Positions 1-26,167 of a DNA stretch of 27,790 bases are shown here, piece by piece. This DNA comes from Syncephalis fuscata. Its lineage: Eukaryota; Zoopagomycota; Zoopagomycetes; Zoopagales; Piptocephalidaceae. A program made the position numbers and the translations under genes. Within the stretch, counting starts at the first letter, position 1. Each line of letters begins with the position of its first letter. Where the stretch lies: assembly GCA_025786725.1 (NCBI GenBank), contig JAHLTZ010000102.1, positions 1-27,790 of the forward strand, written 5' to 3'. A model generated the notes under the pieces. It searched no databases. It worked only from the letters and a program-made list of their open reading frames with translations, and had not been told where the DNA came from.

Positions 1-188
1 CAAGACCACCAGTAACGACGAGACCCGTCTGGATGAACGTCTAACGAAAATATATTTACTTTACGTTGACGTTCATCTATTAACCGTGATTATAGAGTGC
101 ATATAGCGAGGTTATTCTAAAGATTGCGTTCAAATAAGAACCAACTTACCAAGATGGCCAAATCCACGCCGGCTTTGATATATGCATT
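1..188 (-). CDS. Possible partial gene at left edge (two exons)
   Basis: On the minus strand a candidate exon at 188-150 (reading NAYIKAGVDLAIL) is followed by a GTAAGT donor at 149-144. A candidate acceptor (TTAG) precedes 40-1, which reads TFIQTGLVVTGGL in the same frame. The 109-nt intron is within the range of other introns in this window. The joined peptide is hydrophobic, as in a membrane or enzyme core, but I do not recognise it. Other frames of these short exons are also open, so the frame choice is an inference from the combined hydrophobic reading. The gene would continue beyond base 1, and its upstream exons between 189 and about 600 were not found. Weak call. Confidence 0.25.
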
Positions 189-1038
189 CTACCACTATAA
201 CACTAGTAGTAAGAGTACGAGTACTAATAATACTTGGATCGGTAAAAGTAATTCGAAAAGATAAAAAGAATCCGGTTATGTTATGCCAAGGATAACAAAC
301 AAACAAACAAACAAACAAACGCAATGACAACAACAAATACACGTCGTCGTCTAATGTGGCCAATTGAAAAGTATTCAGTATAAATCGGAGATTGATCACG
401 TCAGGTATTAAATAATAGTTTGTATTAATAAAAAACTATAACTATTTTAAACTTTTAAACTTTCATTAATAACAAAGCACCAGACTACGTATATATAAAG
501 TTTAATATTGTAAATGATTACGTATTTTTACTTACTGACTTTAATGTGCAATAATATTTATACTTTAATGACTTTACTATGTAATACTATTACAACTTTA
601 TAACATGACCCCTCATTGTGTGATATATTGTCATTGTTAGACTATTTATATAATAAAACAATTTTGAAACATCGTTGTACATTGAGAGTTGGAGATAAAT
701 ACTATTCATGCATTAGTTTCAATAAATTAGTTAAGCTATATTGCAGCAACAAAGAAAATGTTGCTAAACGTGCAGCAATATGCATGTCCGAACAGTTGCT
801 GCTGCTGTTACTTATTGTTACTGTCACCTTTGCCAATTCCAAGTCATTGTGCGCCCAGTCGGGCATGTTCTGTTTCAGGCCCCCATTTACCATTTGCCAT
901 TTGCCATTGACCATTGATCCTCGTGTTCAATACCATCGATTTTGTTGTTAAATTTACGTTAACTTTTCTATTTCGCTGCACTTGATTTTCTACACTATTT
1001 TTTGTGCTCTACTATTTTATTCATATTGGTAAACCAGT
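189..1038. other. AT-rich intergenic region / 5' side of the metacaspase-like gene
   Basis: Mostly AT-rich sequence without convincing coding exons. Contains an AAAC-type microsatellite (294-320). From 784 to 951 (+) there is an ATG-initiated 55-codon frame starting MSEQLLLLLLIVTVTFA, which looks like a signal peptide followed by a short Cys-containing tail. The tail lies over the short CCATTTGCCATTTGCC-like repeats at about 890-915, so chance is likely. It could instead be an upstream ORF in the leader of the gene starting at 1039. No clear TATA box was identified. Confidence 0.5.
294..320. repeat. AAAC tetranucleotide microsatellite
   Basis: Nearly seven uninterrupted copies of a four-base AAAC unit. 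Simple repeat; no function apparent. Confidence 0.95.
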
Positions 1039-2040
1039 ATGACTGAACCAGCAACAGCTATCGTTCCTGTTAAGAAAATACATCCAGCAGTTGAGGACCA
1101 TAACAGTGATATACAACAACAACAGCCAGTAGCACCATTATCGCCATCCACTTCTTCTAGTGCTGCTCCAACAAGCAACGATGGTATAGCGTTGTTTTTA
1201 TCAACGTTAACACTTGTTAACCAACAAAAGAATACTGCTACTATAACACCGCCCAGTGCAATATCATCGCAATCAAGTCGTCCACTGCCCACACCACCAG
1301 TCAAGAAAACATCAGCACCTGTATCCCCTATTACCCCGGGTGATGGCTCATTTGATCCACTAAATCAATTATCACGACCATCTTCTTCGTATTATCCAAC
1401 AAGTGCCACATCTATTGATGGTCTATCGCCTTCTGTACTGCCATCAAGTATAGCCACTAGTGATACCACACCTACATCTGCCCTTTCATCGCCAGATACA
1501 AGTACATCACCAATATTGGCAAATGCCGTGCCATTCATAGATGGTTTAGCCAATCCAATGGCTATGCCATCAACTACGGAGACTGGTCCACTATTAACTG
1601 ACCCAACACAGTATCCTTCGCCTCCATTGACCAACATGGTCGCACCTACTAATACTGCCGGTATTGTATTCCATAATGGTCAATATCTCCAGATGGTACA
1701 AACACCCAATGGACCACAATATGTTGTAGTGGCACCACCTATGAATAATTCAGCCATGCCATCAACAGCTATAGTAGATACTACTGTAGACACTACTATT
1801 AATACAACCATAACAAATGATCAAACAAAAGAGGTAATTAATCTATTCAATTTATTATAATAACTAATTATTATTAGACAACCACTCATATAAATGAGGT
1901 TGTGTCCATTAAAGATGATGCTGTAATTAATACAGTATCTACTACTGTAGATATCCATACAGTTACACCTGTTATAACTAATAGTGAAATACCAGTATCA
2001 GCCGATACATCCGATAATACATGCATCGTTGATATTCAAG

Positions 2041-2079
<39 letters not shown>

Positions 2080-4323
2080 TTGATAATACTGCCGATTCTA
2101 TTACTGCTTCTAATGAAGCAGATATTGTTGCTATTGCTGCCGCCACTGATGCTCTTATTAATGCTGCAGCTCAAAAATCGGCCTCACTTAGTGCTGCTAC
2201 TCAAGCACCCACTGTTAACACTAGCATTGCTACTAGTCAACCAGCTGTACCTCAACAACAGCCACCTACTGTTATTAATAATACATTTACTAATGCCACT
2301 CAGATGCCTATACCAATTAGTCATGCTACAACGATACCAATGACAGGCCATCCAGCCGCTCCAATGTATATCAATAATCCTGCCATGGCTATACCTGGCA
2401 CAACAACACAGCCTATGATGTTATCTCATGCCAGCACTATGCCGATGTCCTATGTCGCATCTAATGGTCTTATTATGAAGCCTGGTAAAAATATCAATAT
2501 GAGCAATAATACATTCATGGGTGGACTATTTTCAAATAAAAAGTCACCAACCGCACCTATGATGGGGACACAAATAATCAATGGACAAGTAGTTGGTGTT
2601 CCAATGATGAATGGTCAAATGGCCGGCACTCAAATGGTTAATGGTCCATTAGTTGGCCCTCAAATAATTAATGGACAACTAGTTAATAGACAAATAGTTG
2701 GTGGGCAAGTAATTAATGTACCAATTTTTGGTGCTCAAATGGTCAGTGGTCAAGTAATTGGTAAACAAGTAGCTGGTGGACAAATAATTGGTACACCGGT
2801 TACTGGTGCCCAAATGGTCAGCGGTCAAATGGTCAGTGCACAAGTAGTTGGTGGACAGGTAGTTGGTACACCAGTTACTGGTGCCCAAATGGTCAGCGGT
2901 CAAATGGTCAGTGCACAAGTAGTTGGTGGACAAATAATTGGCACACCAGTCACTGGTGCCCAAATGGTCAGTGGTCATGTAATTGGTAAACAAGTAGCTG
3001 GTGGACAAATAATTGGCACACCAGTTACTGGCGCCCAAATGGCCAGCGGTCAAATGGTCGGTGCACAAGTAGTTGGTGGACAGGTAGTTGGTACACCGGT
3101 TACTGGTACCCAAATGGTCAGCGGTCAAATGGTCACTACACAAATGGTTGGCACTACAGCAACTGCCGGTATGGTACAAGATCAAACAGCACTTATGCCT
3201 ATTACTGGTAAACGGCGTGCATTACTTATCGGTATCGATTACCGCAATACACAAATGCAACGATTAGGTAATCACTTTATTATTATTAAGTGTGATTAGT
3301 ATTAACAGTGATATCTTTAATAGGTAGTGGTGCGGCAGTAGGTGAATTTTATAAGTTCCTGACTGGCCATTGCAATTATAAGCCATCAGAAGTGCTTGTA
3401 CTTACTGATGCACAGCCAAATCCTAAAATGCATCCAAATCGAGCGGTTATTATTAAAGCTATTGAATGGTTAACCAAAAATGCAGCACCTGGCGATTCAT
3501 TCTTATTTTATTATTCAGGTCGCAGTGCTATGGTAAGTATTTAGTAATGATTTATTTGCTTTATTAAACAATATTCAGATTCAAGATATGACAGGCGAGG
3601 AATTAAATGGTGTTTGTAATTCTCTTACACCTATGGATCATCTAGTGACTGGCCAATTAGTAAATGCGGTAATTGTTTTATTATTGATTAATTTATTCAC
3701 TTTGCTAATTGATGACTGTGTAGGATATCAATACGATTTTGGTTAAGCGTATTCCAGTTGGTGCTCGACTACTGGTACTTAATGATATAGTGACACCAGG
3801 CTCGCTTTGTAGCCTACCTATTGTTTATAAGGGGGATGGCAGTAAGCGTGGTGTGGTTAGTGATACAGCTGGTTTGGGTGCAATAGCCGCCACTGCCGGT
3901 CTTAAGCTTTTTTTCGGTCTGGATGCCGGTGCTATGAATTCAGCTGGTAGGGGGGCTGCAAAAGCCGCTAAAGTAGCATATAGTAGGAATAAGCGTCAAT
4001 CTAATCGAGGAACACCGGCATTGGTTGTGGCTATTGGAAGGTAACGATAAACAGTAAACACAATATCAATAGTACTAACTAATAATACCAATAATAATGG
4101 TAGAAAACCACCTAAAACGGCATCGAACGCTGCGGCTCAAGTGCCACCACCGCCACCTGGTACCGTGGCTCGTTTATTCATGGAGCTTTACCAATGTAAT
4201 CCGGTTCTTTCATACGAACAATTACGTGTCGGTATGATTCAGCAATTTATGACTCGTTATGGACATCGACCGGAATTCTCGTCAGGTAGTGATCTTTTGT
4301 GGAGGGGACAGATTGTTATTTAA
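1039..4323 (+). CDS. Metacaspase-like protein, probable pseudo-protease, six exons
   Basis: Exons 1039-1833, 1878-3267, 3324-3532, 3579-3668, 3724-4040 and 4104-4323 join in frame into 1006 codons. All introns are GT..AG and 44-63 nt long; the last has a TACTAAC branch site at 4073-4079. Residues 1-about 490 are Ser/Thr/Pro/Gln-rich and probably disordered, with a 12-Thr run. Residues 495-689 are five-residue repeats. The caspase fold starts near 711 with RRALLIGIDY, continues through GDSFLFYYSG and LPIVY, and ends with a typical metacaspase C-terminus (LSYEQL..., FSSGSDLL...). Type I metacaspases are cysteine proteases cleaving after Arg/Lys, with an SGHG His motif and a D-x-C-H-S-G Cys motif. 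Here these read SGRS (Arg795) and DIVTPG (Val851), and the acidic substrate-pocket segment reads GRKPPKTASN. Proteolysis is therefore unlikely; a regulatory or scaffold role is inference. Intact frame and splice sites argue against a pseudogene. The start is the first ATG of the open frame. Convergent with ADE2. Confidence 0.9.
2042..2078 (+). repeat. ACT trinucleotide run encoding poly-Thr
   Basis: Twelve consecutive ACT codons encode a threonine run in the disordered prodomain of the metacaspase-like protein. Pure codon repetition suggests slippage expansion, so the length is likely polymorphic. Confidence 0.95.
2565..3149 (+). repeat. In-frame 15-bp (5-aa) repeat array with 75-bp higher-order unit
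   Basis: The region translates into 39 consecutive pentads of pattern x-x-Gln/Pro-aliphatic-aliphatic/Thr, for example GGQVV, GTPVT, GAQMV, SGQMV, SAQVV. From about 2730 the pentads are organised into a 25-residue block repeated every 75 bp: equivalent GGT/GGC-GCT/GCC-CAA starts fall at 2730, 2805, 2880, 2955, 3030 and, diverged, 3105. Earlier pentads (2565-2730) are more diverged, with NGQ and GPQ variants. Synonymous third-base changes between copies alongside a conserved aliphatic/Gln pattern suggest selection on the protein. It is not the classical A(D/N)Lxx pentapeptide family. A regular strand-turn or amyloid-like structure is possible but is inference. Confidence 0.95.
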
Positions 4324-4509
4324 TAGCAAACCAGTATAAATAAAATTGATATTAAGTATTACAATTTAAATTCGCTTAATTCACTTATTAAATATTATGT
4401 AATAAAATACTTAATTAACTAGTTCAAATTATGATCATAGATTCTGTATGGTAAAGCATCTAGTAATTAACATTATACTAATACGATGCATCCGGTTATA
4501 TTTATTGCA
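4324..4509. terminator. Shared 3' region between convergent genes
   Basis: Short AT-rich spacer between the stop codons of the metacaspase-like gene (+) and ADE2 (-). A canonical AATAAA at 4339-4344 lies just past the plus-strand stop and could direct polyadenylation. Minus-strand signals are less clear in this AT-rich stretch. Confidence 0.4.
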
Positions 4510-6375
4510 TTAATAATTCTTATAGCCCACTAGGTTGATACGCTCAACCTTGGCCATAACCTGGGCTTCTTGATCGGACAAGTAGCGGTCCATCAATTCT
4601 AGGTGGGCTTTTTCTTTTACACCGAGTATACGTACGGCAAGTAATCCGGCATTGGTGCTATTATTAATAGCTACTGTGGCTACTGGAATACCTCGCTATA
4701 AGTATTCATTATTAGTACTCATGTATATTATTATGTTATTATCGTATGCTTACAGGCATCTGAACAATAGAGTAGAGCGAATCAACACCATCAAGACAGC
4801 TGCCTTTTACCGGTACACCAATGACTGGCAATGAAGTCTGAGCGGCCACCATGCCTGGTAGGTGTGCTGCTCCGCCAGCACCGGCTATAATGCATCGTAG
4901 TCCACGTTCGACTGCTGTACGTGCATACTCGGTAAGACGGCCTGGTGTACGATGGGCACTAACAATTGTCAGTTCAAATGGCACATCGAATTGTTCAAGT
5001 ATTTCTGCAGCCGCTCTCATTACTGGCAAATCCGAGTCACTTCCCATAATAATGCCCACAACTGGCTGGCCACATGATGTAGGCGACGAGAACAGCGGTG
5101 TATTTAATTGTAGCATAGTCATGGCTGTCTCGGCGGATGCCTCTTCTGCGTCGGGTTCAGCTGCATCGAGTTCGCTAAGAATAGGTGCCATAGACGATAG
5201 GATGCTGGCCAAGCTGGTGCCTACTACAGTAATATGGCCCATCTTACGACCGGGTCTTAGTTCTGGTTTGCCGTAAAGATGAACAGTGGCGCCTGGTACA
5301 TTTAGGGCAGCTTGTATCGCACCAGTCATACCATTACTGCCTAGTAGATTAACCATAATGGCGGCGGGTACCTTTAAATCAGTACCGCCTAGTGGCAATC
5401 CAACAACGGCTCGTAAATGATTTTCAAACTGAGACGACTGGCATGCTTCAATAGTGTAATGGCCTGAATTGTGTGGTCTTGGAGCAATCTCATTAACAAG
5501 GATTGAGTCTATATTGTAATGCAGTTACAAATAAGTACTGTAGTAAATAGCTAATCGTTATACTGACCATCTTTCATAAGAAATAGCTCTACACCAAATA
5601 TACCTGCACCTTCAAGAGTAAGAACAGCTGCCTCGGCTACACGACGTGCCATATCAGCTACTTTTGTTGAAACCGGTGCGGGTGCCAATACTAAATGACA
5701 GACACTACGCCGTTGAATCGTTTCAACTACCGGATAGCTTACGACTTTTCCATCTCGACTACGTACTACCATTACGGCTAATTCCTTGTTATAGTTTGCC
5801 CATCGCTCAGCGTAGATACCGCCGACACTGGCTGCATCTCCACCGCCTAAACTTGCATAGGCCGTACTACAGTTGTCTGCTGTATTCACTACCGCATTAC
5901 CGCGGCCATCATAAGCAAGTCGGCGTGCCTTTAGCATAAGTGGATAGCCAAATGAGTTACCAGCCTCTGCAACGGCATTTTCGTCAGTACAAGCAAAAAA
6001 GTCTGGCACGGGTACGCCATGTGAGCGTAGATGCTCTTTTTGGCGCAGTTTATCCTGGATAAGCGCAATGGTTGCCGGCGTGGGTTGGACATCGATTTTG
6101 CCGTTGGCAGTATCAGCTACTTCTTTTAGTGCCATCGTATCTACATGCTCAATTTCAACGGTAAGTACATCACAATGCGTCGCTAGTTGTTGAATTGCTT
6201 GTGGATCGGTGAATGGCGCGTCAATATGAGTGGTGCTGGCCAGTAGCTGCTTAGCCGGCGCTTGTGGCAAAGGATCAAGTATATGCAGGGGAATTTGAAG
6301 ACGGTGAGCCGCTTCAGCCATCATACGACCCAGCTGACCTCCTCCAAGTACGCCAACACGCTTACTCGAGATCAT
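4510..6375 (-). CDS. ADE2: Phosphoribosylaminoimidazole carboxylase (AIR carboxylase), three exons
   Basis: Exons 6375-5568, 5508-4754 and 4695-4510 (introns 59 and 58 nt) join to 582 codons, close to the roughly 570 residues usual for fungal Ade2. The enzyme carboxylates aminoimidazole ribonucleotide in de novo purine synthesis in the cytosol. The N-terminal PurK-like ATP-grasp half opens with [12 protein letters not shown] and includes [17 protein letters not shown] and, across the first intron, [20 protein letters not shown]. The C-terminal PurE half starts near residue 419 with [13 protein letters not shown] and contains [34 protein letters not shown] and the last-exon segment [12 protein letters not shown]. 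An Ala/Glu-rich linker of about 50 residues separates the halves. The first intron begins with the less common donor GTCAGT, forced by reading frame. All recognisable motifs are intact, so the gene should be functional. The ATG at 6375 places the glycine-rich loop at the expected distance from the N-terminus. Confidence 0.98.
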
Positions 6376-6900
6376 TATATATGGTTATGTATATGATATA
6401 GATATAGACAAATACACCAAGAGCGATAGAGCGGCGACAGGCTAGTCGAAACAAAAAGCTTAGCAAGAAAACCCGAAAATAAATCTGGCAATCTCACCTT
6501 ATCAGCATCTATCTAATCAGTATGCTAGTCACTTAGTCCCACTGTTATGACGATAACTTGCATTAATTAACTTTTAATTATAAGTATTAACATCATACTA
6601 ATTGTTAATTAGTGTAATTAGTGTAATTGCTCCCATTGATATCGGATACGTTAGCTTAACAACGAACATTGGTTACTTATTGCTATATAATTGTATTGGC
6701 ACCGAATAAAACGAATTTATTGAACACATTGATGTTTATATTTATCGTATATTTTTATTAAACTACGTCACATTAAAGCTCTTTAGGTATACCACCATTA
6801 ATACTGTTCTGCATTTCCGTTTTAGCCGTTCTACATTTAATCTGATGTTTGTATAATTGGAAAAGCCAAGGGCTTTCGTTTTTGGTTTTCTGTGGCCGTC
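6376..6900. promoter_or_regulatory. Divergent intergenic region between ADE2 and the LEA-2-like gene
   Basis: 525 bp separating two divergently transcribed start codons; it must hold both core promoters. Strongly AT-rich at about 6540-6780. TATA-like TATAT stretches lie immediately before the ADE2 start (about 6376-6405). No specific factor site was recognised with confidence. Confidence 0.5.
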
Positions 6901-8169
6901 ATGGTTTCCTCGTCGCGGCCGCCGCCTATCTTTTACCACGGCACCTATCTATGCGCTTCTCCTTCTTCTTCTACCTCTATTTCTGCTGCTGCTACTGCTT
7001 CTTCTGCTTCTTCTTCTAGCACTGCTTCACGGCCACAGGCTCAGGTGCCATATCGTCAACCATCCAAATATAGTGGTGTATACGATCCAATTAGTGGGCC
7101 TGCTGTAAAACGGCCAGTAACCTGTATCCAGCCGTTTCATTTGGTAGCACCACCATCACAATTACCACGACCATTAGCACCACGATTACCAGTGCCAGTA
7201 TCATTGGCATCTCCGCCTCGACCGTCTATATTTTTTCACTCTTCTGCTACTGCGTTTCCGCCTTCCTCTAATACTTCTTTGCATACTAGAACTTTATTTG
7301 AACTTCCATTTCCTCGATCGACAATGAGTATCCAACACCAGCATCCGCCACCCATGGCAGAGGCACATACTTATCCTCATGCAAATACAGGATATAGCCA
7401 CCCAGTACAACCACAGACGACTTATATGGGTAACGCCATGAGCTATCATAGTGGCGACCCATTAACCGGGCCACCAGCGGCTAAGCATAAAGGTAGTGCC
7501 TCCAAATCCTGCTGGACACGTAAGCATCGACCATGCGGCAGATTGTGTCCGTGTTGCTGCTGTAGTTGCTGCTGCTGTTGCATTGTGTTGATTCTTCTAG
7601 CTATTGCTATTGGCATTACTACGTTTTTTGTATGGCCTCGCGTACCACAGGTCGACCTACTTGAAATCAAGCCTATTACACTGCCATCAGGCATGGATCT
7701 GGCATCCTCAATGCTAAATACAATAACAGGCAGTGGCCCGCTTTCATTTACGAGTGAGTGGCAACTTAAAGTGGCCGTTGATAGCCCCAACTATATTGGG
7801 TGGCATTTTGACAAAGTAACTGGTGAGTTGGTCGATCCTCCAACTGGTCGTGTTGTTGGCACGGGCAATCTTACCGATTTCACGCTGCCGGCCCGTACGA
7901 ATACAACTGTCACGCTACCCGTGCAACTAGTCTACAAAGCAACGTCGTCAAATGATGCTAATAAGGAAAGCAGTGGTATAACTGGCGGCATACTAAGCAA
8001 GATAATGGATCCAATGCTGTCACGAGTCATTACCGCCTGCCAGCAAAAGACTAAAATCCCTATGACACTTAAACTATCATTTTTAGTGCCGGTCATCCGA
8101 TGGTTTGGTGTACCTCATATTGAGCGATCTATTTCCTTATCTTGTCCTTTCCAAATGCCTTCTCTGTAG
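6901..8169 (+). CDS. Single-pass membrane protein with Cys cluster and LEA-2-like domain
   Basis: Uninterrupted 422-codon frame. Residues 1-200 are Ser/Pro/Ala-rich and probably cytosolic and disordered. Residues 216-227 read CPCCCCSCCCCC, directly followed by one hydrophobic helix at 228-245 (IVLILLAIAIGITTFFVW). The rest (about 250-422) looks like a LEA-2 / NDR1-HIN1-like beta-sandwich: VDLLEIKPITLPSG, a SPNYIGWHFDKVTG strand pair (295-), GTGNLTDFTLPA and a repeated strand pattern. Possible N-glycosylation sites are N323 and N334, if this part is lumenal or extracellular. Family assignment rests on this architecture and strand motif, not a search. The 11 Cys beside the membrane suggest S-palmitoylation (inference). 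The ATG at 6901 has G at -3 and G at +4. A second ATG at 7324 (A at -3, MSIQHQHPPPMAEAH) would give a 281-aa protein and cannot be excluded, because the upstream part is low-complexity. Function unknown; LEA-2 domains elsewhere are linked to stress and membrane or lipid interaction. Confidence 0.7.
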   Translation: MVSSSRPPPIFYHGTYLCASPSSSTSISAAATASSASSSSTASRPQAQVPYRQPSKYSGVYDPISGPAVKRPVTCIQPFHLVAPPSQLPRPLAPRLPVPVSLASPPRPSIFFHSSATAFPPSSNTSLHTRTLFELPFPRSTMSIQHQHPPPMAEAHTYPHANTGYSHPVQPQTTYMGNAMSYHSGDPLTGPPAAKHKGSASKSCWTRKHRPCGRLCPCCCCSCCCCCIVLILLAIAIGITTFFVWPRVPQVDLLEIKPITLPSGMDLASSMLNTITGSGPLSFTSEWQLKVAVDSPNYIGWHFDKVTGELVDPPTGRVVGTGNLTDFTLPARTNTTVTLPVQLVYKATSSNDANKESSGITGGILSKIMDPMLSRVITACQQKTKIPMTLKLSFLVPVIRWFGVPHIERSISLSCPFQMPSL

Positions 8170-8328
8170 CATCCTTTTTTCATAGTCTTTTTTAAGTATA
8201 ATAACTTTATATATCGATGCATATTACTCAATTTTAAATAAAAATAATTGTATCAACTACTTAATAGACTAATTGCGTTAATATTACTGTGTTTTTACTC
8301 AGTTTACTAAACATACTTAAAGCAGAAG

Positions 8329-8532
8329 CTAAATAAAAAATATATTATTTTTTTCAATTACTTTATATGTTAGAATGGTTGCAAAAACGACAATAAAGAA
8401 GAGAGCTAAGTAATTTAGATAATAGATAGCAAAAGTTGCTTGTGTGGCAATTTCCGTGATGCCAACTAATAACATGGCATATGTAGCAGTAATCAAATGA
8501 CTACAATTAATAGCATTCAATCTATTGAACAT
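8329..8532 (-). CDS. Possible small membrane protein arising from inverted-duplication arm
   Basis: ATG-initiated 67-codon frame beginning MFNRLNAINCSHL, with two hydrophobic stretches (about residues 17-35 and 44-60) that could be membrane helices. Its first 13 codons lie inside the left arm of the inverted duplication. The right arm encodes the mirrored start MFNRLNIINCSHL on the plus strand and stops five codons later (9217-9270). The shared starts suggest a duplicated gene head, but the frame is short, AT-rich and resembles no family I know. It may be a chance frame or a remnant. Confidence 0.25.
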   Translation of the reverse strand: MFNRLNAINCSHLITATYAMLLVGITEIATQATFAIYYLNYLALFFIVVFATILTYKVIEKNNIFFI

Positions 8533-8695
8533 GCTAGTTGATGGTAAGTGACATCAATCATCAAATACTCATCGTCATAGATTTATTATCCAGTATGCAT
8601 ATATTCACCATTTACTTGCATTATTCCCATTCTATCTCACACTACTATATACCATTATATAATATACAGTCACATTCTATTTGCTATAAACTTCA
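8494..8695 (+). repeat. Left arm of diverged inverted duplication
   Basis: Starts CAAATGACTACAATTAATAG and matches the reverse complement of 9050-9255 along its whole length at roughly 80% by eye, with only short gaps. The best block is GGTAAGTGACATCAATCATC, identical in both arms. Similarity fades inward after about 8695. Confidence 0.85.
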
Positions 8696-8708
8696 AGTAG
8701 ATATAAAT

Positions 8709-8757
8709 AATGAGCTGAATTAGCCGACTTTTGTTAATAATAAAGCTAAAGCAAAAA
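8709..8757 (+). repeat. Short direct repeat, copy 1
   Basis: AATGAGCTGA-ATT followed by AATAATAAAGCTA and CAAAAA. The same ordered blocks recur at 8870-8909 in the same orientation, with an 11-base gap relative to this copy. Both copies lie in the spacer between the inverted arms. Confidence 0.65.
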
Positions 8758-8869
8758 GAACAATTGCAATAGCTAGCGCGTATATACTAGACAATAAAAC
8801 AGTATACAATATTAAGCGACAATTAGCTATGTCAAAGTTATTAAGCATATATGTATGCTTAATGAAGTG

Positions 8870-8909
8870 AATGAGCTGAGATTTATAAATAATAAAGCTA
8901 GAACAAAAA
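8870..8909 (+). repeat. Short direct repeat, copy 2
   Basis: Second copy of the blocks at 8709-8757 in the same orientation; it lacks about 11 bases in the middle. Confidence 0.65.
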
Positions 8910-9049
8910 TAAAAGTAGTTTTGAATAGAGGAGGACTAGGTGAGTATAGAATGATATGTAAAATGATAAATGTACGGTAAGAAAGCATATTAAACAATGT
9001 TAAAACTATAGTACATATAATGCAATGAGGGGAATGAGTGAGGTTTATT

Positions 9050-9255
9050 GGAACGTATAAACAATAGAATGTATTCAATATGTCATAGAATGATGTATAA
9101 TAGCGTGGGATAGAATGGAAATGATATAAGTGAATGGTGGATATATGCATATTGGATAATGGATCTACGATTATGAGTATTTTGATGATTGATGTCACTT
9201 ACCATCACCCAGCATCATGTTCAATAGACTGAATATTATTAATTGTAGTCATTTG
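9050..9255 (-). repeat. Right arm of diverged inverted duplication
   Basis: Reverse complement of the left arm (8494-8695). The arms are separated by about 354 bp. This arm carries an extra 3-base insertion near 9210, and its outer edge at 9255 is a sharp end of similarity. It encodes the mirrored frame start MFNRLNIINCSHL at 9217. Confidence 0.85.
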
Positions 9256-9368
9256 TCTTCCAAAAAATAATAAATGTAATGATGTAATGATTAATAAAAC
9301 GCTTAATTACAAAAATAAAAATAAAACTTTATTAAAAATACAAAAAAGAAATGCAGTCTATATAGCTG

Positions 9369-9519
9369 CTAAATTAATAAGAAATCGATTAGCTAGATAA
9401 TAGTATACGATTAAAGTTAGTGACAAATTATTAATTAAAATTACTACTTACCTTAATACCTTCTAACAAGATGTTAATTGAAAGCGCACAAGCACGTGGT
9501 GTATTGCCAATAACTACAT
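9369..9519 (-). pseudogene. Exon-like remnant of a spliced gene
   Basis: On the minus strand an AG acceptor precedes 9519-9452, which reads VVIGNTPRACALSINILLEG and then IK. A GTAAGT donor starts at 9451. A CACTAAC branch-like site and a CTAG acceptor end the 59-nt intron at 9393. The next exon, 9392-9369, reads LIDFLLI and stops. The intron has all the features of the real introns in this window, and the first peptide looks like folded protein rather than AT-rich noise. No convincing upstream exon joins to it: the sequence above 9520 has stops in the candidate frames. It is therefore called a probable truncated gene end or a gene with unrecognised upstream exons. Family not recognised. Confidence 0.3.
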
Positions 9520-10197
9520 CTAAGGCTTTAATTTATTTAATAAATGGTTAATTGCTACAACATTAGTTACATCATAGCAATAGCAACTAGCTGTTCAATA
9601 CTATATTGTATAAACTAACGACTATACCACGCTATTATCAGTACCAGTAATGCTTCTATTTTTATTTTATATTTTATTTTTATACTCGAGTAATTATAAA
9701 ACACGTATAATCATTTTAATGGTACATAATATACACCATTCCTATAAATCATATTCCACAACTGCTATTAATTTTATAGCTGTAAAATCTATTTAATATA
9801 ATGATTCATACTAGCTAATAATTTATTCTCCTCTACAATTACACTATATTAATACTAGTAAGCAATGAAAAGGCATGAATAGTAGTGGACTTATTATATT
9901 TATATGCACACAATGAACAAGTAAAATAAAATGAGTTTTAAAAAAATCTAACAATAAGCATATGTTTTGCAAATAAAATATACATATAAAAAACATATAC
10001 TAACATGTTTTATACAATGTATTAAGTAAATAATATTTATGGGTAATATTCTAATGATGAATAGCAATATTGACAATAATTCAAAAGTAAATGAATGCTA
10101 TATACATTAGAGCAGTAGAATACGCAAGTATATCCGTTATTTTGTAGCGATTGGAGTTGATGATAGTAGTAAAATAATAAATAATAGTTTTTTTAGA

Positions 10198-12071
10198 TTA
10201 TTGACTGCTACAAGTGCTAGTTGTTATTTGCTGAAATTGGTTATTAAACTGCTCAATTATCTGCTGGGCTATGGCTCGACCAGAATCGGTAGCATCAGCA
10301 GTGATGGCCAAGTAAATAGATTCATTATACGTCGATACAGTAATGCTCAGCTTTCCGGGTCCTATCGTTGGTGAGTGAACTAGCCAGGACTGTACACGAT
10401 AGTACGGCAGCGTCTCTCCTTTTAAATACAAAAAACTGATATCTTCTTCATCTTTGACTGTTGTTGTGCTTGTGAAGGGTAGCGATACTTGAAGTTCACA
10501 ATTTTCTGTATATTGATTCCATCTAATATTAAAAACATTAGTACTGTTTAGTAGCAATAATAAATTACGTACGCATTGAATGATTGCATGTAAAATGCCG
10601 CCGGTGCTTGTTGGTGTGCTATTTGTCTATACTGACGAGCAGCTTCTAGACGATCAGTAGTAGAATTTACCCCCTTGCCAGATATATGAACATATGCAGA
10701 CTGTGTTTGATGAAAACTAAAACAGTTACTATCTTCACGCAATGATATAGGCAATTGCAGCAACCAATCACTTGCATCTTTGCCTGTGTTTAGTTCATTT
10801 GCCAAGCCTATTGACTGGATAGTATGTTGATTGGATCGAACAGATATGTATGCTTCTATAATACAGGCCAATATGACATCATTGATATCAGTATCTGGAT
10901 AAGCATCACAAACAGTTTGTACAGCAGATAATGGAAGAGGGGTCGACCATCCGGTGTATTTGAGCTGTGATCGACGATTTATCCAAACCAATGGCTTTGT
11001 TTGAATTAAACGAATCCAATAGACTGATAGAAATGCTAATGAATACATAAGGCGGCACCAAGTGTAAATTATTTGAGTTACAGCTTGGGCTGTTTGATAG
11101 CTTGTTTGTAAGATTAGCGAGTGCCATGGTGTTGGTGCAAGTGTGGTGGCTACTGTATGAGTATCAGCTGATAAAGCACCATAAGATAAACTTGTAAAGG
11201 TATTGTTCTTTAATAAAGTGTTTTTCTCATCACAATCAGCATTAGTGGCAGTATCATTATTGGAGTTGATACTGTTTGCTGATAATGACATTGCATTAGT
11301 AATTGTCTGGAGTAAACCTTCAATGTCCATGATACATTGATGAACGGCGAGTGCCATAATTGTTTGGTTTTCAAGGCCATGCATTAGTTGAACCCGCCAT
11401 AACGGTAAATTAAAAGCGTGGTGGCGAGAGTGAAATTCACCGTAGCATGACTGAATTGCCGCTTGCTCACGATCCATTAAACTTGGATGCTGTGGCGAGG
11501 GTGGCGGCAGTAATAGCCATCTTTCTTCAATGTTGTCTCGAGGATGCCACTCTGGTATGGCAGTCGTTTGTTCTGATGATGATGATGATGATGGATATGG
11601 TTGATAGCTAATATCAGACCAATGAGCTAGACCACGCGTATGCCATCCATTATTTTCGCCTTCTTTGCAGGTACATTGGTGGCGATCGTGTTGAGTTTTT
11701 ATTGCAGTCACAGGAATTTGACGTAGACGAGGTTGTAAACGACAAATCAATTCCATTTGGTCGGCAACCACTGCCGGGCTGACTTGGCCTTCTAACCAAA
11801 ACAATAGTGTGGTATAGCTATTACGTTCCAATGAACTGCTTCCTGTTGACAGCAAATTCAACTCTGTTGATGTCATTAACACCGAAGGTATAGCCTGATA
11901 ATTGTCGCCATTCTCATTAGTGCTGCCCACGCCATCAGTACTATTAGTATCATTGGCAGTATTGATAGCGATAGTACCCTCTTTTTTCTTGCTACTATTG
12001 TATTTATCCAATTTCGGCGACGATGGTATTGGTTTAATACATAAATATCCATCAAAAACAATATCTCCCAT
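10198..12071 (-). CDS. WS/DGAT-like O-acyltransferase, two exons, altered active site
   Basis: Exons 12071-10573 and 10522-10198 (50-nt intron with a CTACTAAAC-like branch region) give 607 codons. The layout fits the wax ester synthase / acyl-CoA:diacylglycerol acyltransferase family, which transfers acyl groups from acyl-CoA to fatty or glyceride alcohols for neutral lipid. An N-terminal 'mst-x-L' start and LLFWLEG strand is followed by RLRQIPV, PLWRVQLMHGLENQTIMALAVHQCIMDIEG, then NDVILACIIEAY (about 396), LPISLRED and a C-terminal part (SPTIGPGKLSITVSTYNESIYLAITAD, 550-576). The family's HHxxxDG active site reads H244-Q245-C-I-M-D249-I: the second His, usually the catalytic base, is Gln and the Gly is Ile. 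A hydrophobic stretch (about 340-365) could anchor it in a membrane. Asn/Ser-rich inserts occur near residues 30-60 and 265-300. The start is the first ATG of the frame (MGDIVFDGY); a possible leader intron acceptor (TTTTTTTAG) lies just upstream. The substrate cannot be deduced, and activity is uncertain because of Gln245. Confidence 0.8.
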
Positions 12072-12843
12072 TGTATAAATTGAATCACTGACTAAAAAAA
12101 CAAACAGCAAAAAAATAAAAAGGCTTGAATAATGAATGGTGCATATTACATTTAGCCAGTTTATTATTGTTTTTATTGTCTACAAGTGTTAGTGCCGTGC
12201 TGACCATCATGATGTTGAACTCAACACGTGAATAAGTCGTGATGTCAGGTGATTGAGAAATCCAGTTACATGTGAACATTAGCGCATGTTGTCGTCATCT
12301 GCTCTTTGTTGCAATTAAAAGCAAGCTTTCTCTTTTTTGTGATATTCTCGTTTTTATGCGTCTGATGATTGGTTTGATAGTAGTAGTGTTGTGTATATTG
12401 TAATCCATAACAAACAGTAAAACAAAAATTCCCAATGCTACTTAAATAGTATTCGAGTGTTTCCATTTTAGATAACCATAATGTCAGTACTAAAAGACAA
12501 TTGGTTATATCAGAGTGAATATTGTTACCAAGCCATGCAAACTCTGTGCCATTTAAAGCAGTGCCTTCTTATTGAAAACGAGCATACCACGTGTGTAACG
12601 CGCAATCAAAATAAATCGGAGTCAATGGCGGCCATTTTAACAAGTCGGTGGCCAGTCTCATAAAAGCTGCGTTTTTTTATTATTATTCTCGTGTGTACCA
12701 TTAACGTAACATTACTTTTTAACTTATAATACCATTTCTAACGATTAATACCGCAGTATTTCATAGTTAATGCAATATTTTAATTACTTTTATCAATTTC
12801 CTATAGACCGTATTATAACAAATAATACTTTTATTTTATTTAA
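12072..12843. promoter_or_regulatory. Divergent intergenic region between acyltransferase and tail-anchored protein genes
   Basis: Two palindromic E-box motifs CACGTG (12225-12230 and 12588-12593) and an inverted CCAAT box (ATTGG near 12367) could serve either divergent gene. A 60-codon ATG frame at 12481-12663 (+, MSVLKDNWLYQSEYCYQAM...) has no recognisable domain and may be leader sequence. 12664-12843 is AT-rich. Regulatory roles are inferred from motif identity only. Confidence 0.4.
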
Positions 12844-13740
12844 ATGGCTAATGAAACACCATTAATTATTCTTAATCAAATGTCATCGTTATCGGATAAA
12901 AATGCAACGGTTTCGCAGCCGACATTTGAAGTCCAAGAGCAATTTAACTCGACTGTAATAGTGAACGATTACAATCATGAGATGGATATAATTGAAGGCT
13001 ATCGGCAGACCGAAGAATCGACAGCCACTGAGACAGGTCACAAAGAAACTAATATGTCTACCTCGGCAGATTATGGTAACTATCTACAGTCGCTAGTCAG
13101 TCGTCAATATCCATATGCTACTACCGCATCAATAGCGCACTGGGATTCTTGGCACCTTGCAATTGATGACCATGCAGATAGGGTCTATTCTAGCAGGCAG
13201 CCATCGCATCATCCTTCAATGTCTTATTATGACTGTCAAGAGCCGAATGATATGCCTTCTTATGGGCCTTGTTTGACAACAAATTATGCGCAGTTTGATA
13301 CAATTAACTACAAAAGATCTCAATCAGCTGTTACAGCGCCAAATGCCATGATATCCTCGCCATATCTATCGACACCGCCACTAACGCCATGCTCGCCACA
13401 GCGTAACACTATATCTGTGCAACAAGCACAGTATTCAACACCTTATACTTCGCCGTCTTATGCCTCATCTACAACCATTGCTCCCCTTCCATTTCTAGGC
13501 ATTTCCAAGGCAGTATCGCCTCAACAGATAGAGGCCTCCAAGCCTGTAATGCTACCGCCTATCTACAATGACAATAGCGAGAGAAAAACCTCAAATCTCG
13601 AAGCTACCTATCATCCATGTTCCAGCTGCTTACCATCATTCTCAGTCTCAATTTGTTGTGTGTGTGCGATAGTCATACCAGTGCTGCTACTGTCAATCGC
13701 TCTTGTTGGTTTTTTTGTTGATTTTAGCTCTATCATTTAA
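12844..13740 (+). CDS. Disordered protein with C-terminal membrane anchor
   Basis: Intact 298-codon frame without introns, in a fungal-looking codon style and with an ATG (MANETPLII) right after an AT-rich leader. Residues 1-255 are polar and Ser/Thr/Pro/Tyr/Gln-rich, with clustered Ser/Thr-Pro sites (STPPLTPCSPQR and SPSYASS near 178-210), typical of proline-directed phosphorylation; disorder is likely. The C-terminus has Cys259, Cys262, Cys271, Cys272 and Cys274 running into one hydrophobic helix (about 272-292) that ends six residues before the stop. This suggests a tail-anchored protein facing the cytosol. The Cys-rich segment plus helix and FFV ending resembles that of the LEA-2-like protein at 6901-8169 (CCCC..., TTFFVW), so it may be a relative lacking the ectodomain. 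No enzyme domain recognised; function unknown. Confidence 0.75.
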   Translation: MANETPLIILNQMSSLSDKNATVSQPTFEVQEQFNSTVIVNDYNHEMDIIEGYRQTEESTATETGHKETNMSTSADYGNYLQSLVSRQYPYATTASIAHWDSWHLAIDDHADRVYSSRQPSHHPSMSYYDCQEPNDMPSYGPCLTTNYAQFDTINYKRSQSAVTAPNAMISSPYLSTPPLTPCSPQRNTISVQQAQYSTPYTSPSYASSTTIAPLPFLGISKAVSPQQIEASKPVMLPPIYNDNSERKTSNLEATYHPCSSCLPSFSVSICCVCAIVIPVLLLSIALVGFFVDFSSII

Positions 13741-15293
13741 ATACCGCTTATAGTAATAACCGTGTCTTTATTTGATGCATATACTATTTTGAACACATAG
13801 ATATTATATGGTACATTGTACGAATGAATTCACTAATAAAACTAATTATAATACATTTATCAATTGTATATGATATAAAAACTAGTAACATGCTATGCTT
13901 GTATATATATATATTGAACAAGCAAATGGACAATGGATGCAAATTTACATGCGTAAATATAGATTATTGACAAAATCAATTGTGTAATTATGCGCTGAAG
14001 CAAGCAGTTACCATATCACTTGATGTTTCGTGCAAAAAGACGAAAACAATGAGTAACAATGATAATATGCTGATGATGACGATGGTGATGAGAGTAAGGA
14101 TGATAATGGTGCTGATGATAGTAATAATAATGGTGATGAGAAATAAAAGGATGAATGATGATCGGTATGAGTGGATTATGGTAATAGACACCGCAAAGTT
14201 TGACATAGCCGTAATGGAGGCATAGAACGCAGCGCAAAATACAAAGGAAAATGGACATAAAGGTCGCTAATAAAATGCACACAAAACATCACACAAATAA
14301 CAAACAACAGACAAACAAACAGACAAATAACTTTACAAATAAACAAGTGCTAGATGCATAGACAAACAAATAAGCGTGCAAAAATAACTATTAGCTTGTC
14401 AATAACTATATCGGCCAATAGTCGTAGCACTAGCATTTGTGTTACTTGTAAATCGTCGTATCCAGTGTAATTAATCGGAAAGCTTGGTACTTTAAAATGC
14501 TCAACATCGTAATTGTCGTAACGCTTGCAAATAAAAAAGCGTGTGGATGCCTTAAAAAGCAACTGATAACTACAATGATAGACAGATGGTATTACTGTAC
14601 ATCTGGCACAATATACAGTCTAATAGTAAATTAAACTGCTATCGACCAGATGAACAACAATTATTTGCCCAGTCAATAAAGAACAGATTGGATGCTAGTA
14701 ATAGACGAGAAAAACGTGAATGCTGCGCGTCAAAAATAAACGCGTTAACTTGTAAAAGGAAAGTGGTGATATAAGCGTGGATGTGTGCAAGGGGTAAAAC
14801 AAAGCGCGAATAGAAAAGTGCAGCCATTGCTCAAGCACTGACGTGGCTTGTGGATATGCGTGTGTTGAGATGGAAAGATGGACGAAGGAAGAAAGAGAGG
14901 TAGAGAGAGAGAGAGAGAGAGGTAGAATAAAAGATAAAAAAGGTTGAAATGGATGGCGATAAAGTGGGATAAAGGAATAAGAGAAAGTAGAGAGGTGAGA
15001 GTATTTGAAAGCAATGACTAGCATTTACCAATGTTGTTTTTATGCTGATATAATTGAAAGACAAAAAACAGGTCATTCCAACTGCTTAGTAACTTCGTTA
15101 TGCAGATTTATATCAATATCTGTTAACGTAGATTTAGAAAGAAGAAAGAAAATGAAAAGAAGAGTTATGTTTAAAGAGTATATATATATATGCTACAAAT
15201 GAAATGAAGAATAGTACGCGAGAGTCAACGCGTTAAAAAGAAATGGTGCCATAACTTTGGCTGAGTCATAGGGAAAATAGTAGGAGAAGAAAT
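13741..15293. other. Intergenic region with simple repeats
   Basis: Spacer between the tail-anchored protein gene (+) and the 3' end of the RFX gene (-). Contains GAT-rich sequence (about 14060-14165), an ACAAA-rich stretch (about 14280-14370), GA repeats (14902-14921) and purine-rich plus-strand DNA up to about 15010. A 70-codon minus-strand frame at 14562-14350 (ASTRFFICKRYDNYDVEHF..., hydrophobic at the end) begins at TTG behind an AG and has no recognised homolog; it could be an exon but is not called. No RNA gene seen. Confidence 0.5.
14902..14921. repeat. GA dinucleotide microsatellite
   Basis: Ten AG/GA units inside a wider purine-rich tract (14880-15005). Confidence 0.95.
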
Positions 15294-18030
15294 TTACGAC
15301 CGGATTGGCTGGTTTGCCGTCGGAGGAGCAGTTGACAGGTTTATCGATAGAGTGGATCGCATCGATGATGCTGAACTAGCAGAAAGAGAAAGCTCACGAT
15401 GAGTATGATCGTGGCTATACTCGCGGTCGGTGTAATTACGGTGTGAATAGGTAGCATCTTCACAAGGCTCTTCGGCAAACTCACTACTATCGCAGCTATG
15501 CATATCGCTATAAGCATCGGCTGTCATTGTGTGTTGCATGCTATCAGGCTGTGGCGATGGCGAATGATCCGATGTATTCATATCGACATCGCTGTTGTCG
15601 GTTGTGGTAGCAGTGCCGGCAGTGTCGCGACGACCCGTCAGATTGGTAATTTTGGTGTCGGTAGTAGCCTGTTCTGATGCAGCAAAACGTGATCGACGGC
15701 GCTGTTGTGCTACGCGTTGTGCTTCCGTTTGTGGGCGACCTTTTTTGGCCGTGACACTAAATTGGCGATTGATGAGCACACGTAAAGTAAAATGAAGGAA
15801 GGAAAAAAACGCTTATGGCGGTACAAACAATGGCCAATCATAGGCCATCAAGTAATAATTGACTTACCGATTGCCATTGTATTTTGGGTCATCACGAACG
15901 ATGGCTTCGACGTTGGCCAGCAAATAAGAGCCGTCTTTTGGGTGAATGCCAATATAGGAGTAGCTATAAACGATAATTAAGAATAAACGGCATGTTGATT
16001 TATAATGGTTAGTAACTAGAATGGTATTATAGTAAGTGATGATAGTAACTTACGTTGACATGCGTCGTTGGCCAAGTCGACGTGATCGAATGCCAGGAAA
16101 AGTGCTTACAACAAGACGGCCAAAGTTGGCCAAATCAAGTAGTTCGCCCTCTGGATCAACACGTTCTGCGTATTGAATGTAGTACTGATGTAGTGTACGG
16201 CGTTGAATAGAAAAACGAGGTGGTGCTGGCTCAAAGTTATCGAGTAGCCTATCAGATGTAGATATATATCGTTAATAAAAACAAATGCTATGCTTAGCAA
16301 ACTTACCATTTGCGCCCAGTATCTCGTTTACGTGCCAGCTCGTCGTGACGTGGATGTGCACGTCGCATCATTGAAGATTCATGGAAGTTTGAAAAGTTTT
16401 GCGATGCAGCAGCCATGCCATTAAAGTGAGAGGCTGGCATAGGTGCATTACTGATATCTAGTACATCATTGGCATGAATAGCGCCACTAAACGACGAATG
16501 GCCACGAGAAGAGTGCATGTTGTCGGCAAATTCATGCTTGATCGCATGATGTACCAGCGTAGAACGATGTGCAGTACCACTTTGCTTGTATGCCATTGTT
16601 TCCGACACTATAGAATGATATCATAAGGTTGGTTAGTCGTTATTGTTGTTAACAAAAAACAATCGCTTCATTGTATGCTATATTTTAGCACACAATGCTA
16701 ACAAAGACTTACCATGGCTACCGTGGCTTGTGGGTATTTGATGCGAACGCTGTTGCTGAATAGACGTGGTCGAAGAAGTGTGGCCTTGGCATACACTATC
16801 GTAATGAACATCGGCAGGCGGTGTCACCTGGCTATACACAGGTGGGTCGCGTTGCTGGTAACGCTTCACGGCATCCTGTTGATAGCCAGCTGGTGTATGG
16901 CGGGCATAGGACGAGCTATAACGGTAGTCGTTATAGTCATGCACTCGACCCTCTTTATTATAGCAGGACGACAAGTGATCAAATGACTGTACAGATGGCA
17001 AGCCAGCAATCGGTTTACTATCATGTCGCAATGACGGTAAATGTGGCGCCGATTGATGATGGTAAAGCGATGGCAAAACGGTCTTTGTTTTTGGTAGGCC
17101 ATTATTCAATGTGTTTGCTTTGGAAAGTCCATGAGAAAACTCGATTGAATGCTGTTCGGGGTAGAAACGATGGCCAACCGGTGCTGGTTGTCTATAGGAT
17201 AGTGGACGAGCGTATTCGTCACTTCTTTCTGTGTGAGCGAATTGGTTTGAATAGGATGTGCTATCGGCGGAGGTATAGGAAGAGGTGGCGGTGGCGGCAG
17301 CAGCATGCTCATACATATCGGTAGTGCTCGGTGAAATACGCTGGGGGTTTAATGGAACGGAGTGGTGCGCAGCGTGTTTCGTGTAGTGAACACTATCGGT
17401 AAAAGATGGCCGTTGCTGTTGCTGCTGTAGCAAATGATGCTGCATTTCAAACGATCGTGGCGGAGTCGTTTGGCCGAATCGAAGCATAGTCGAGTGCTGT
17501 TCTTTTGGGTAGGCAAGTACTCGATCCCTAGCCATCATCGCCTGTTTATTAACTTCACGGCGATCATTATAGTTATCAGGGGATAGCGGAGTAATGAGTG
17601 GGCGATTATGAACAAATCCGCCATTTTTTGAAGGTAAAGGCGATAGTAATTCGGATATCTTTGTAGGTGAACGTGTATCATTGCTGTGCTCGCTTTGATG
17701 TCTAGCCGAGATGAGTGCTGGGTGCTGATGACTTGAGGGTACATGGCCAGAAGAAGGCTTTGGACCATTGCTATACAATGCTGCAGGGGTCGAATAACTT
17801 GTGGGCTGATAGTTTGACACCGAGTCACTTGTACTGCCATTTTCTGGGTGAGAAATTAAGAACGGTAGAGGTGGCAGGCCGGCCTGTGTATGCTGACTAT
17901 CGCCTGAGCCAATTGTTCTAGGCGCAGTTGAATGGTGTTCGGCGGAACGATGAGCAATGGCATTCGAATGCTGATTGGAAGGTAGCCAGGACTTGGCACT
18001 CTCCGCAGTTTGACTATGGGTGGCATGCAT
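15294..18030 (-). CDS. RFX-family winged-helix transcription factor, five or more exons
   Basis: Exons 18030-16713, 16607-16307, 16248-16054, 15963-15868 and 15756-15294 (introns 105, 58, 90 and 111 nt, GTAAGT donors) join to 790 codons. The RFX DNA-binding domain spans residues 540-611, across exons 3 and 4 and starting at an exon junction: WLLDNFEP, IQRRTLHQYYIQY, LANFGRLVVSTFPGIRSRRLG, then QRRMSTYSYIG. RFX proteins bind X-box DNA through the wing; the fungal members Crt1/Rfx1 and Sak1 control DNA-damage or cell-cycle genes. The usual wing core is RRLGTRGNSKYHYYG; here Gly-Asn and Lys/His are replaced (R602-M603, T605, S607). Residues 1-530 are His/Ser/Gln/Pro-rich and low-complexity. After the domain come an AT-hook-like KKGRPQ (641-646), an RRR motif (656-658) and an acidic/Ser tail. 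The dimerisation regions of animal RFX proteins were not seen. The ATG at 18030 is the first in frame. An alternative exon at 18196-18094 may join at 18013 (SQSVS|SQTAES), so the N-terminus is uncertain. Confidence 0.88.
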
Positions 18031-24407: not shown

Positions 24408-25395
24408 ATGGTGGCAGTGGCTGGATAGAGAGGGGAAAGAGGGGAAGAAAAGAAGAGAAAGGACTCAATAGGTGAATTAACAGGTATGAGGAGGGAACGA
24501 AAGAGAGGAGAGTAAGAGTGATAAGCGCTGGAAAGGAATAAACATAAAGAATAGAGCTGACGAAGCGAAAAAGAGTAGAACAAAGTGGAAAGAAGTCAGC
24601 TATTAATGTGGGGACGTGCACCGCCCCTTGTAATCGGAAGTTGCAGTGAAATAGTATTGCCAATGCCTAGCTGGCTATGGAAAAGATGTGGTTGACAATG
24701 TGGGCTGTTGTCTTCGCAAACGAACTGTACAACAAAACGACATGACAGCCTGACGCTCGTCTAAGTACCTGTGCATCATCCCACTTGACTGCCAACATCG
24801 TGGGATTGATCTGTGTGAATACCCACCGTTACATACATACATATGAAGAAACACGAAGACCGACGCAAGACGCACGTGCATTCGCAAAGGTAGGATGCTT
24901 ACCCGGAGTGAACTGTACAACGTCTGATGAAGGTGGCAGTAGATCGAGAGGGATGTTGAAAGGAAGGAAACAGGAGAAGGACTAATGTATATGATAAAAC
25001 TATACGGGTACCTACATCCGAGGACATGCAGTGTTTATTAATTGTCATAGGCAATAGCATTGGCCGAATTGAATGACGGTAAAGTGACTGGCTACTATTG
25101 CGTGAACACTGGTCGCAATCATAAGGCAGTTTTACAGCCTGCAAAAATAACGACACAACTTAGTCAGGTTATCCATTTCGAGTACCCGTAGGTATTGGAA
25201 CAACACGTGTCAGCATGGAGAAGCTGAGGTGAGATTTAATGTAAAACAAAGTCGATGAATATCTGATGAGAAATTCTTTATTTTGGAAGTGTCGATCAAC
25301 AACAGCCACTGTCCGTTTGCACGGTAATGTAAACAATGAAGCTGGCCAGCATATCTCCTGTACCATACTCATAAAATGCAATCATTTATGGTTAC

Positions 25396-25415
25396 TTACT
25401 TGTTTAAACAAGTAA
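25396..25415. repeat. Perfect 20-bp palindrome
   Basis: TTACTTGTTTAAACAAGTAA is an exact inverted repeat without spacer. AT-rich, so chance is possible. Confidence 0.85.
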
Positions 25416-25473
25416 ATGAACGAAAGCAGACATAGGCTGTAATACTGATGGGTTGGCGACAAACAATGAGACA

Positions 25474-25512
25474 CCACACATACACATACACATACACACA
25501 CGCACACACACA
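25474..25512. repeat. CA / ACACAT microsatellite
   Basis: Alternating ACACAT and CA units similar in composition to 23557-23614. Confidence 0.9.
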
Positions 25513-26159: not shown

Positions 26160-26167
26160 TATAAAAG
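26160..26167 (+). promoter_or_regulatory. Candidate TATA box
   Basis: TATAAAAG in an otherwise non-TATA-rich context, with a pyrimidine-rich stretch (ACTTTTCCCATTTTCTGAC) about 20-35 bases downstream, where a transcript could start near 26190. A small hairpin (AACGG-CTAAA-CCGTT, 26196-26210) follows. No convincing coding sequence follows on the plus strand in this window, so the transcript would be non-coding or have a long leader. Confidence 0.35.

Follow-up and report, generated by a model that had tools for sequence, protein, structure and literature searches.

Whether metacaspases are mainly proteases, or also proteostasis proteins that do not cut, is a matter of open debate, and excerpts of the literature describe mixed results for catalytically dead mutants. 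For CrMCA-II of Chlamydomonas the catalytically dead form suffices to restore heat tolerance, in yeast a Cys mutant of MCA1 gives a partial rescue (PMC10896300), and plant MC1 goes into stress granules even when inactive (PMC10473220); these precedents are counted here in favour of a non-catalytic role. Counted against it are the findings that inactive yeast Mca1p raises the aggregate load, activity being needed to keep aggregates low (PMC13304501), and that the anti-ageing effect of plant MC1 requires catalysis (PMC10473220). An excerpt of a 2025 review gives the His-Cys dyad as common to all metacaspases (PMC12914765).

The gene described here, W, comes from the fungus Syncephalis fuscata. 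Like Yca1/MCA1 of S. cerevisiae and CgMCA-I of C. glabrata, its product has a p20 followed by a p10 part behind a low-complexity N-terminal prodomain. The homology extends across the domain, and the first part of p20 is similar in the predicted model of W. It differs from both enzymes in lacking the dyad and the calcium-binding Asp residues and in having an altered S1 pocket. Its prodomain comprises about 700 amino acids with G/V/Q pentapeptides, whereas YCA1 (432 amino acids in total) is described as having a P/Q/N-rich one (PMC12914765).

Metacaspase-like proteins with replaced catalytic residues are described from other lineages. MCA4 and MCA1 of the kinetoplastid T. brucei are type I pseudo-metacaspases which, like W, combine the metacaspase fold with replaced catalytic residues and occur beside active paralogs. 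In these the Cys is replaced by Ser and in one of them the His by Tyr, excerpts of PMC6426788 and PMC3058108 disagreeing as to which, while W has Arg and Val. W also lacks the calcium-binding Asp residues and two pocket residues, the comparison with the T. brucei proteins being one of catalytic residues alone. MCA4 is described as a pseudopeptidase that is processed by an active metacaspase (PMC6426788, PMC10896300). Plasmodium MCA2 and MCA3, of yet another lineage and compared by description, are likewise said to lack the H/C dyad (PMC3058108). Bacterial pseudo-orthocaspases, for instance Synechocystis SyOC, resemble W in being pseudo-variants of caspase homologs, mostly with Y/S, but they have no p10 and their acidic pocket is called conserved (PMC6426788), whereas that of W is partly lost. 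Among the literature matches listed there was no fungal pseudo-metacaspase. A natural fungal copy in which the dyad, the calcium site and some of the pocket are lost while much of the core is kept may be regarded as evolution's own experiment on the debated question. If such a protein is expressed and retained, the fold alone would be useful, and its partners would reveal for what.

The locus and the gene model

The window, i.e. the whole stretch of DNA that was analysed (27,790 bases), is the complete contig C5 of the S. fuscata genome assembly, which comprises 28.95 Mb in 299 contigs. S. fuscata belongs to the order Zoopagales of the phylum Zoopagomycota. Positions 1-17079 of the window match contig C1 (1,005,272 bases, from C1:864745) in three collinear pieces with 97.5-98.5% identity, and positions 25000-27500 also match it, in order, at 98%; these are the two stretches that the comparison covers. 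Because of this collinear match at about 98%, C5 is read as an apparent second-haplotype contig that has been retained in the assembly beside C1. A local duplication is less likely, since the C1 matches are in order over both stretches. About 280 bp at 8857-9140 are found in the window and are missing from C1, and positions 9063-9255 match 18001-18188 of the joined C1 stretch on the opposite strand with 83% identity.

The gene model of W consists of the following parts, all on the plus strand:

1039..4323, plus strand: predicted pseudo-metacaspase gene W, six exons spliced in frame, 1006 amino acids and stop
1039..1833, plus strand: exon 1, low-complexity N-terminus (splice model)
1878..3267, plus strand: exon 2, with low-complexity prodomain sequence, the repeat array and the first part of the caspase-like domain (splice model)
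3207..4320, plus strand: metacaspase-like p20 and p10 domain, introns included (BLASTP and phmmer; the first 150 residues also by predicted model and Foldseek)
3324..3532, plus strand: exon 3, ending SGR(795)S-AM where the paralogs have SGHG (splice model, paralog alignment)
3579..3668, plus strand: exon 4, in which C811, N827 and A828 occupy positions of calcium-ligand Asp residues (homolog alignment)
3724..4040, plus strand: exon 5, carrying DIVTPG (splice model)
4104..4323, plus strand: exon 6, p10-like end with the remainder of GRKPPKTASN and FSSGSDLL (paralog alignment, phmmer)

A preliminary description of this DNA had six exons joining exactly in frame, which holds: the joined exons encode 1006 amino acids and a stop, and all introns are of the GT..AG type, with lengths of 44-63 bp. 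The span it gave, 3324..4323, corresponds to exons 3-6, while the gene starts at 1039 and the domain already in exon 2, at about 3207. NCBI has a protein from the C1 copy, P0003, annotated as 'caspase domain-containing protein'. It starts at the position of W residue 408, in exon 2, and uses introns 2-4 of the W model identically, but ends at VAIGR with a TAA within intron 5, and therefore lacks the p10 end. It is improbable, though, that W itself gives such a p20-only product by retention of intron 5. Splicing of this intron is preferred because exon 6 aligns to the p10 part of Yca1, because the modelled gene of paralog A (see below) is interrupted there by an intron of the same phase, and because a TACTAAC branch-like motif is found upstream of the GT..AG intron's acceptor. 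The two haplotypes further display one difference, a synonymous one, in the 220 bp of exon 6, against two in the 63 bp of intron 5.

The last 300 residues of W make up a type I metacaspase domain, p20 and then p10, behind the N-terminal prodomain (BLASTP, phmmer). When phmmer was run against PDB sequences, the 298-residue domain matched the C. glabrata enzyme 7qp0 over residues 1-287 (E 3.6e-32) and yeast Yca1 4f6p (E 3.6e-30) and 4f6o (E 4.9e-30, residues 1-288). T. brucei MCA2 matched with E 1.6e-14 or weaker, and the plant enzymes MC4 and MC9 weaker still. Homology of W to active metacaspases over the full length of p20 and p10 is thus shown by the sequence matches, in agreement with the preliminary statement that the exons align along the type I metacaspase fold. 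Against paralog A, BLASTP with composition correction off scored 117 bits, with 28% identity in 303 columns. No Pfam Peptidase_C14 match was found in W, where 0 families were obtained with an E threshold of 1 (10 in the case of P0003), while C14 was matched in paralogs A (E 3.3e-37) and B (E 2e-41); this difference serves as a gauge of the divergence of W.

AlphaFold2 was run on P0003, in which the p10 part is missing, with 49 homologs in the alignment. The ten-residue mean pLDDT was 82-98 over W residues 703-852, i.e. up to the old Cys position, 42-75 past residue 852 and 32-57 in the prodomain part, with 62.4 for the whole model and a pTM of 0.54. Foldseek placed metacaspases on top, with E 4.0e-17 over 161 columns for 7qp0. 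The prediction suggested in the preliminary description thus gave a metacaspase fold for W residues 703-852 in this p10-less model. It is taken as support and not as independent proof, since the homologs in the alignment help the prediction and p10 is absent.

Lost and retained residues

Conservation was read from the best 120 of 605 profile-search matches. The four replacements listed first below concern the pocket, the dyad and the calcium site:

3326..3337, plus strand: S730-G-A-A733 in place of C-I-N-D, i.e. of the S1-pocket residues Cys92 and Asp95 of T. brucei MCA2 (alignment)
3521..3523, plus strand: R795 (CGC) at the catalytic His position, His in 120/120 homologs listed
3790..3792, plus strand: V851 (GTG) at the catalytic Cys position, Cys in 120/120 homologs listed
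3811..3813, plus strand: S858 at the calcium-ligand Asp245 (C. glabrata) or Asp220 (T. brucei), Gly on C1

The calcium-ligand residues of the C. glabrata and T. brucei metacaspases are given in PMC9622860, and the S1-pocket residues Cys92, Asp95 and Asp211 of T. brucei MCA2 in PMC6426788, both used in excerpt. Among the same best 120 of 605 homologs the Cys92 and Asp95 equivalents are each present in 120/120, and the four calcium-ligand Asp residues in 120, 120, 119 (one has Glu) and 120 of 120. All eight sites are replaced in W: in the order dyad, pocket, calcium site they read R, V, S, A, C, N, A and S. The His-Cys dyad of active type I metacaspases is absent, as are all calcium-ligand Asp residues, which in W read C811, N827, A828 and S858. 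In the S1 pocket the first two residues are replaced (S730, A733) and the third is kept (D849). The Ser of the SGH motif is also retained, taken here as the Ser two residues before the catalytic His where the excerpt of PMC6426788 prints Ser159, and so is the Gly that supplies a calcium ligand in C. glabrata.

The preliminary reading of the His motif as SGRS with Arg795 and of the Cys motif as DIVTPG with Val851 is borne out by the codons CGC and GTG of the window, and both contigs give R795 and V851. The specificity segment does read GRKPPKTASN, where the three paralogs have GCMDSQTSAD, GCRDDQTSAD and GCRDDQTAAD. The calcium-site acids had been called sparse; they are indeed depleted, but with all four Asp ligands replaced this understated the loss. 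Because the dyad, the calcium-binding Asp residues and two pocket residues are lost together, proteolysis and calcium switching by W appear very unlikely. W would thus be more thoroughly disarmed than had been described, and its maintenance, treated below, is probable.

There are 79 columns with at least 95% conservation among these best 120 of 605 homologs, and paralog A keeps 77 of them. W keeps 41, divided as 29/40 of the non-polar, Gly and Pro type (GPAVLIFYWM) and 12/39 of the polar ones (Fisher P 2.9e-4). Retention of non-polar over polar residues is the pattern that would be expected for a fold without an active site. A recent inactivation by one residue, or a sequencing error, was rejected, 38 of the 79 near-invariant columns being different and the contigs agreeing on R795 and V851.

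It is very improbable that another Cys or His provides a new activity in W. C857 lies only six residues past V851, and the domain contains four His residues (H744, H765, H819 and H988). However, the catalytic His and its neighbours are replaced, the calcium and S1 sites are lost, and position 857 is not Cys in paralogs A, B and C. An artefact of the gene model or assembly, with the true splicing bringing the motifs back, is even harder to credit. The indels in exon 1 of C1, described below, and nothing else speak for it, while R795 and V851 are found on two contigs. Moreover, no contiguous His-Gly codon pair occurs in any plus-strand frame of window 3480-3740 or in the matching C1 stretch, and no contiguous Cys-His pair in 3724-3900 or its C1 counterpart. 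Alternative splicing that restores the HG and C-H-S-G motifs was consequently rejected as far as contiguous codons in the scanned stretches are concerned.

Haplotypes, paralogs and descent

In the domain (299 codons, stop included) C5 and C1 differ by 7 synonymous and 3 non-synonymous changes (S858G, I861T and F891L) and by no indel. The probability of so few non-synonymous changes is 0.003 with equal rates and 0.014 with the transition bias observed in the aligned stretch, and omega is about 0.14-0.20, as estimated from one haplotype pair with ten differences. Counting to the end of exon 5 gives 6 synonymous and 3 non-synonymous changes (P 0.009-0.034). The N-terminus (624 codons in the window reading, gapped codons excluded) has 8 synonymous and 17 non-synonymous changes, which is like neutral variation; the comparison of domain and N-terminus gave a Fisher P of 0.06. 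As a yardstick, the neighbouring ADE2 gene has 8 synonymous and 5 non-synonymous changes in two exon pieces. This neighbour, on the minus strand at about 4520-6375, is a fused PurK-PurE (ADE2-type) gene that adjoins W and has Pfam support in both exon groups.

Exon 1 of C1 (window 1096-1481; C1 about 865840-866226) has three 1-bp deletions and a 3-bp insertion with a net length of zero. Residues 20-148 are thereby put out of frame, and a straight reading runs into nine stops. This may be a real variant or an assembly error. The C1 domain is unaffected by it, and the NCBI C1 protein begins downstream. Exon 2 has indels of 15 bp and 225 bp, each divisible by three. On both haplotypes the same sites are lost (S858 being Gly on C1), the domain is open and the splice sites are GT..AG. 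The domain of W is therefore probably maintained by selection at the protein level, as far as one haplotype pair can tell. The earlier impression that the gene is maintained is hence supported for the domain, by the 7 to 3 ratio and by the sites lost on both haplotypes, but fails for the N-terminal 700 residues, with their neutral-like variation and the partial frameshift on C1.

The preliminary description also proposed a search for an active paralog, and three S. fuscata metacaspases with intact His and Cys were found in the same genome: A on contig C68, and B and C adjacent to each other on C278.

C68:491827-493698: metacaspase A, intact paralog

All four domain introns of W recur in A at identical places and in identical phases (1, 0, 0, 2). 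For the last of these, a one-residue alignment gap can be moved, and when it is placed after the intron the positions agree exactly. B and C lack two of the shared introns, the one that follows GHGGQ and the one within the VIMFSG segment. Unlike W, A has intact dyad, calcium and pocket residues and a P/G/Y-rich prodomain. In paralog B (L005, reverse strand) the codons of the conserved G-x-I-V-D-D, with two calcium-binding Asp residues, do not share the reading frame of the flanking exon. Six codons, which would encode two of the four calcium-binding Asp residues, are left out of the gene model of B; either a shifted splice donor or a one-base difference would account for this.

Trees were built with 39 rows, namely W, A, B, C and 35 of the best 120 listed homologs (605 matches). 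In them B is placed with a protein from Syncephalis plumigaleata, and C with a protein from S. pseudoplumigaleata, and because of this B and C are regarded as older than the species. Placement of W beside A, B or C was tried, and all four groupings stood unrejected by the AU test, with P 0.164 for W and A, 0.283 for W, A and P0013, 0.179 for W and the B group, and 0.186 for W and the C group. The W branch is extremely long, with 3.6 or 9.8 changes per site. As the tree cannot place W, its link to A rests on the introns, which suggest that W descends from a metacaspase having A's intron plan. No W ortholog was found in two word-filtered searches of proteins of 553-1760 and 166-528 amino acids. 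A search with W alone gave P0003 and P0002 only, from the same length-limited, word-filtered protein sets; P0002 (E 2e-26) has 1117 amino acids and, by eye, two metacaspase domains. W-like proteins may still lie among the other 485 profile matches or have been missed by the word filter.

Judged by its sequence, W is a pseudoenzyme derived from a type I metacaspase, with clear homology and replaced catalytic residues. The pseudo-metacaspase reading put forward earlier has gained from the homology and predicted fold, the shared introns, the replaced catalytic residues, the loss of the same sites on two haplotypes, and the intact-dyad paralogs in the same genome. W might also be a decaying duplicate, in which catalysis went first and the remainder drifts with an open frame left over. 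The C1 exon 1 frameshifts, the near-neutral N-terminus, the Pfam miss and the failure of the two word- and length-limited searches to find an ortholog all fit such decay, and the very long branch fits relaxed constraint too. This explanation is nevertheless considered unlikely. Both haplotypes retain an open domain frame with GT..AG sites, and the domain shows 7 synonymous against 3 non-synonymous changes without any indel. The exon 2 indels keep the frame, and the losses hit polar more than non-polar conserved residues. Moreover, stops would be expected after a period of drift that could account for a branch of this length. It is thus rather probable, though by no means secure, that the domain of W is maintained, with a non-catalytic binding role.

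The prodomain and the possible role of W

The prodomain contains several repeated elements, all on the plus strand:

2041..2079, plus strand: (CTA)13 microsatellite coding for poly-Thr, 15 bp shorter on C1
2571..3149, plus strand: pentapeptide array [GSN]-x-Q-[MVI]-[VI], with GTPVT every 25 amino acids
2690-3134, plus strand: 75-bp repeat unit in 5.9 copies (TRF), C1 being without 225 bp (three units)

Of the 36 in-register slots in residues 510-689, 35 match a loose form of the pentapeptide pattern and one does not, and GTPVT occurs five times at intervals of 25 residues. D and E are absent from the array and K+R make up 2% of it; in the first 410 residues of W, D+E amount to 7%. The array may resemble elastin or condensate-forming sequences. 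At E 0.001, no genome match for the array was found beyond C5 and C1.

W would be unable to cut peptides or to switch with calcium, and if it stays folded it would form a constitutive binding module. The long low-charge prodomain with its G/V/Q-rich array is perhaps condensation-prone and may tether W at protein condensates or aggregates, where it could act as a non-catalytic scaffold or as a competitor beside metacaspases A, B and C. This detail of condensates and partners is given about half the credence of the binding role itself. Comparably tentative is the broader proposal of a metacaspase fold freed of catalysis and calcium and joined to a pentapeptide prodomain that evolves fast and is elastin-like or beta-prone, which would make W a structural or condensate protein and the first fungal pseudo-metacaspase with a job of its own, perhaps that of setting the activity or placement of three active paralogs. 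The preliminary description had put forward regulation of an active paralog or a part in aggregate handling; either may apply, and intact-dyad paralogs are indeed present.

A more specific function as a dominant-negative regulator or decoy of A, B or C, through pairing or substrate competition, is rather doubtful. The three intact-dyad paralogs in the genome agree with it, as do the processing of a T. brucei pseudo-metacaspase by an active one (PMC6426788) and the dimers formed by Chlamydomonas CrMCA-II (PMC10896300), both from excerpts. On the other hand, metacaspases are described as monomeric in the excerpted review (PMC12914765), and the pocket residues that substrate competition would require are partly lost. 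The binding role of a maintained domain is kept here as the preferred reading.

Elsewhere in the window, two overlapping open frames on the minus strand at 10198-12179 look by eye like a WS/DGAT- or condensation-type acyltransferase, with no Pfam match at E 0.01; no Rfam match was obtained. Short dispersed repeats are found at 27226-27317 and 26801-26863, for which 33 and 5 further genome matches were listed, respectively.
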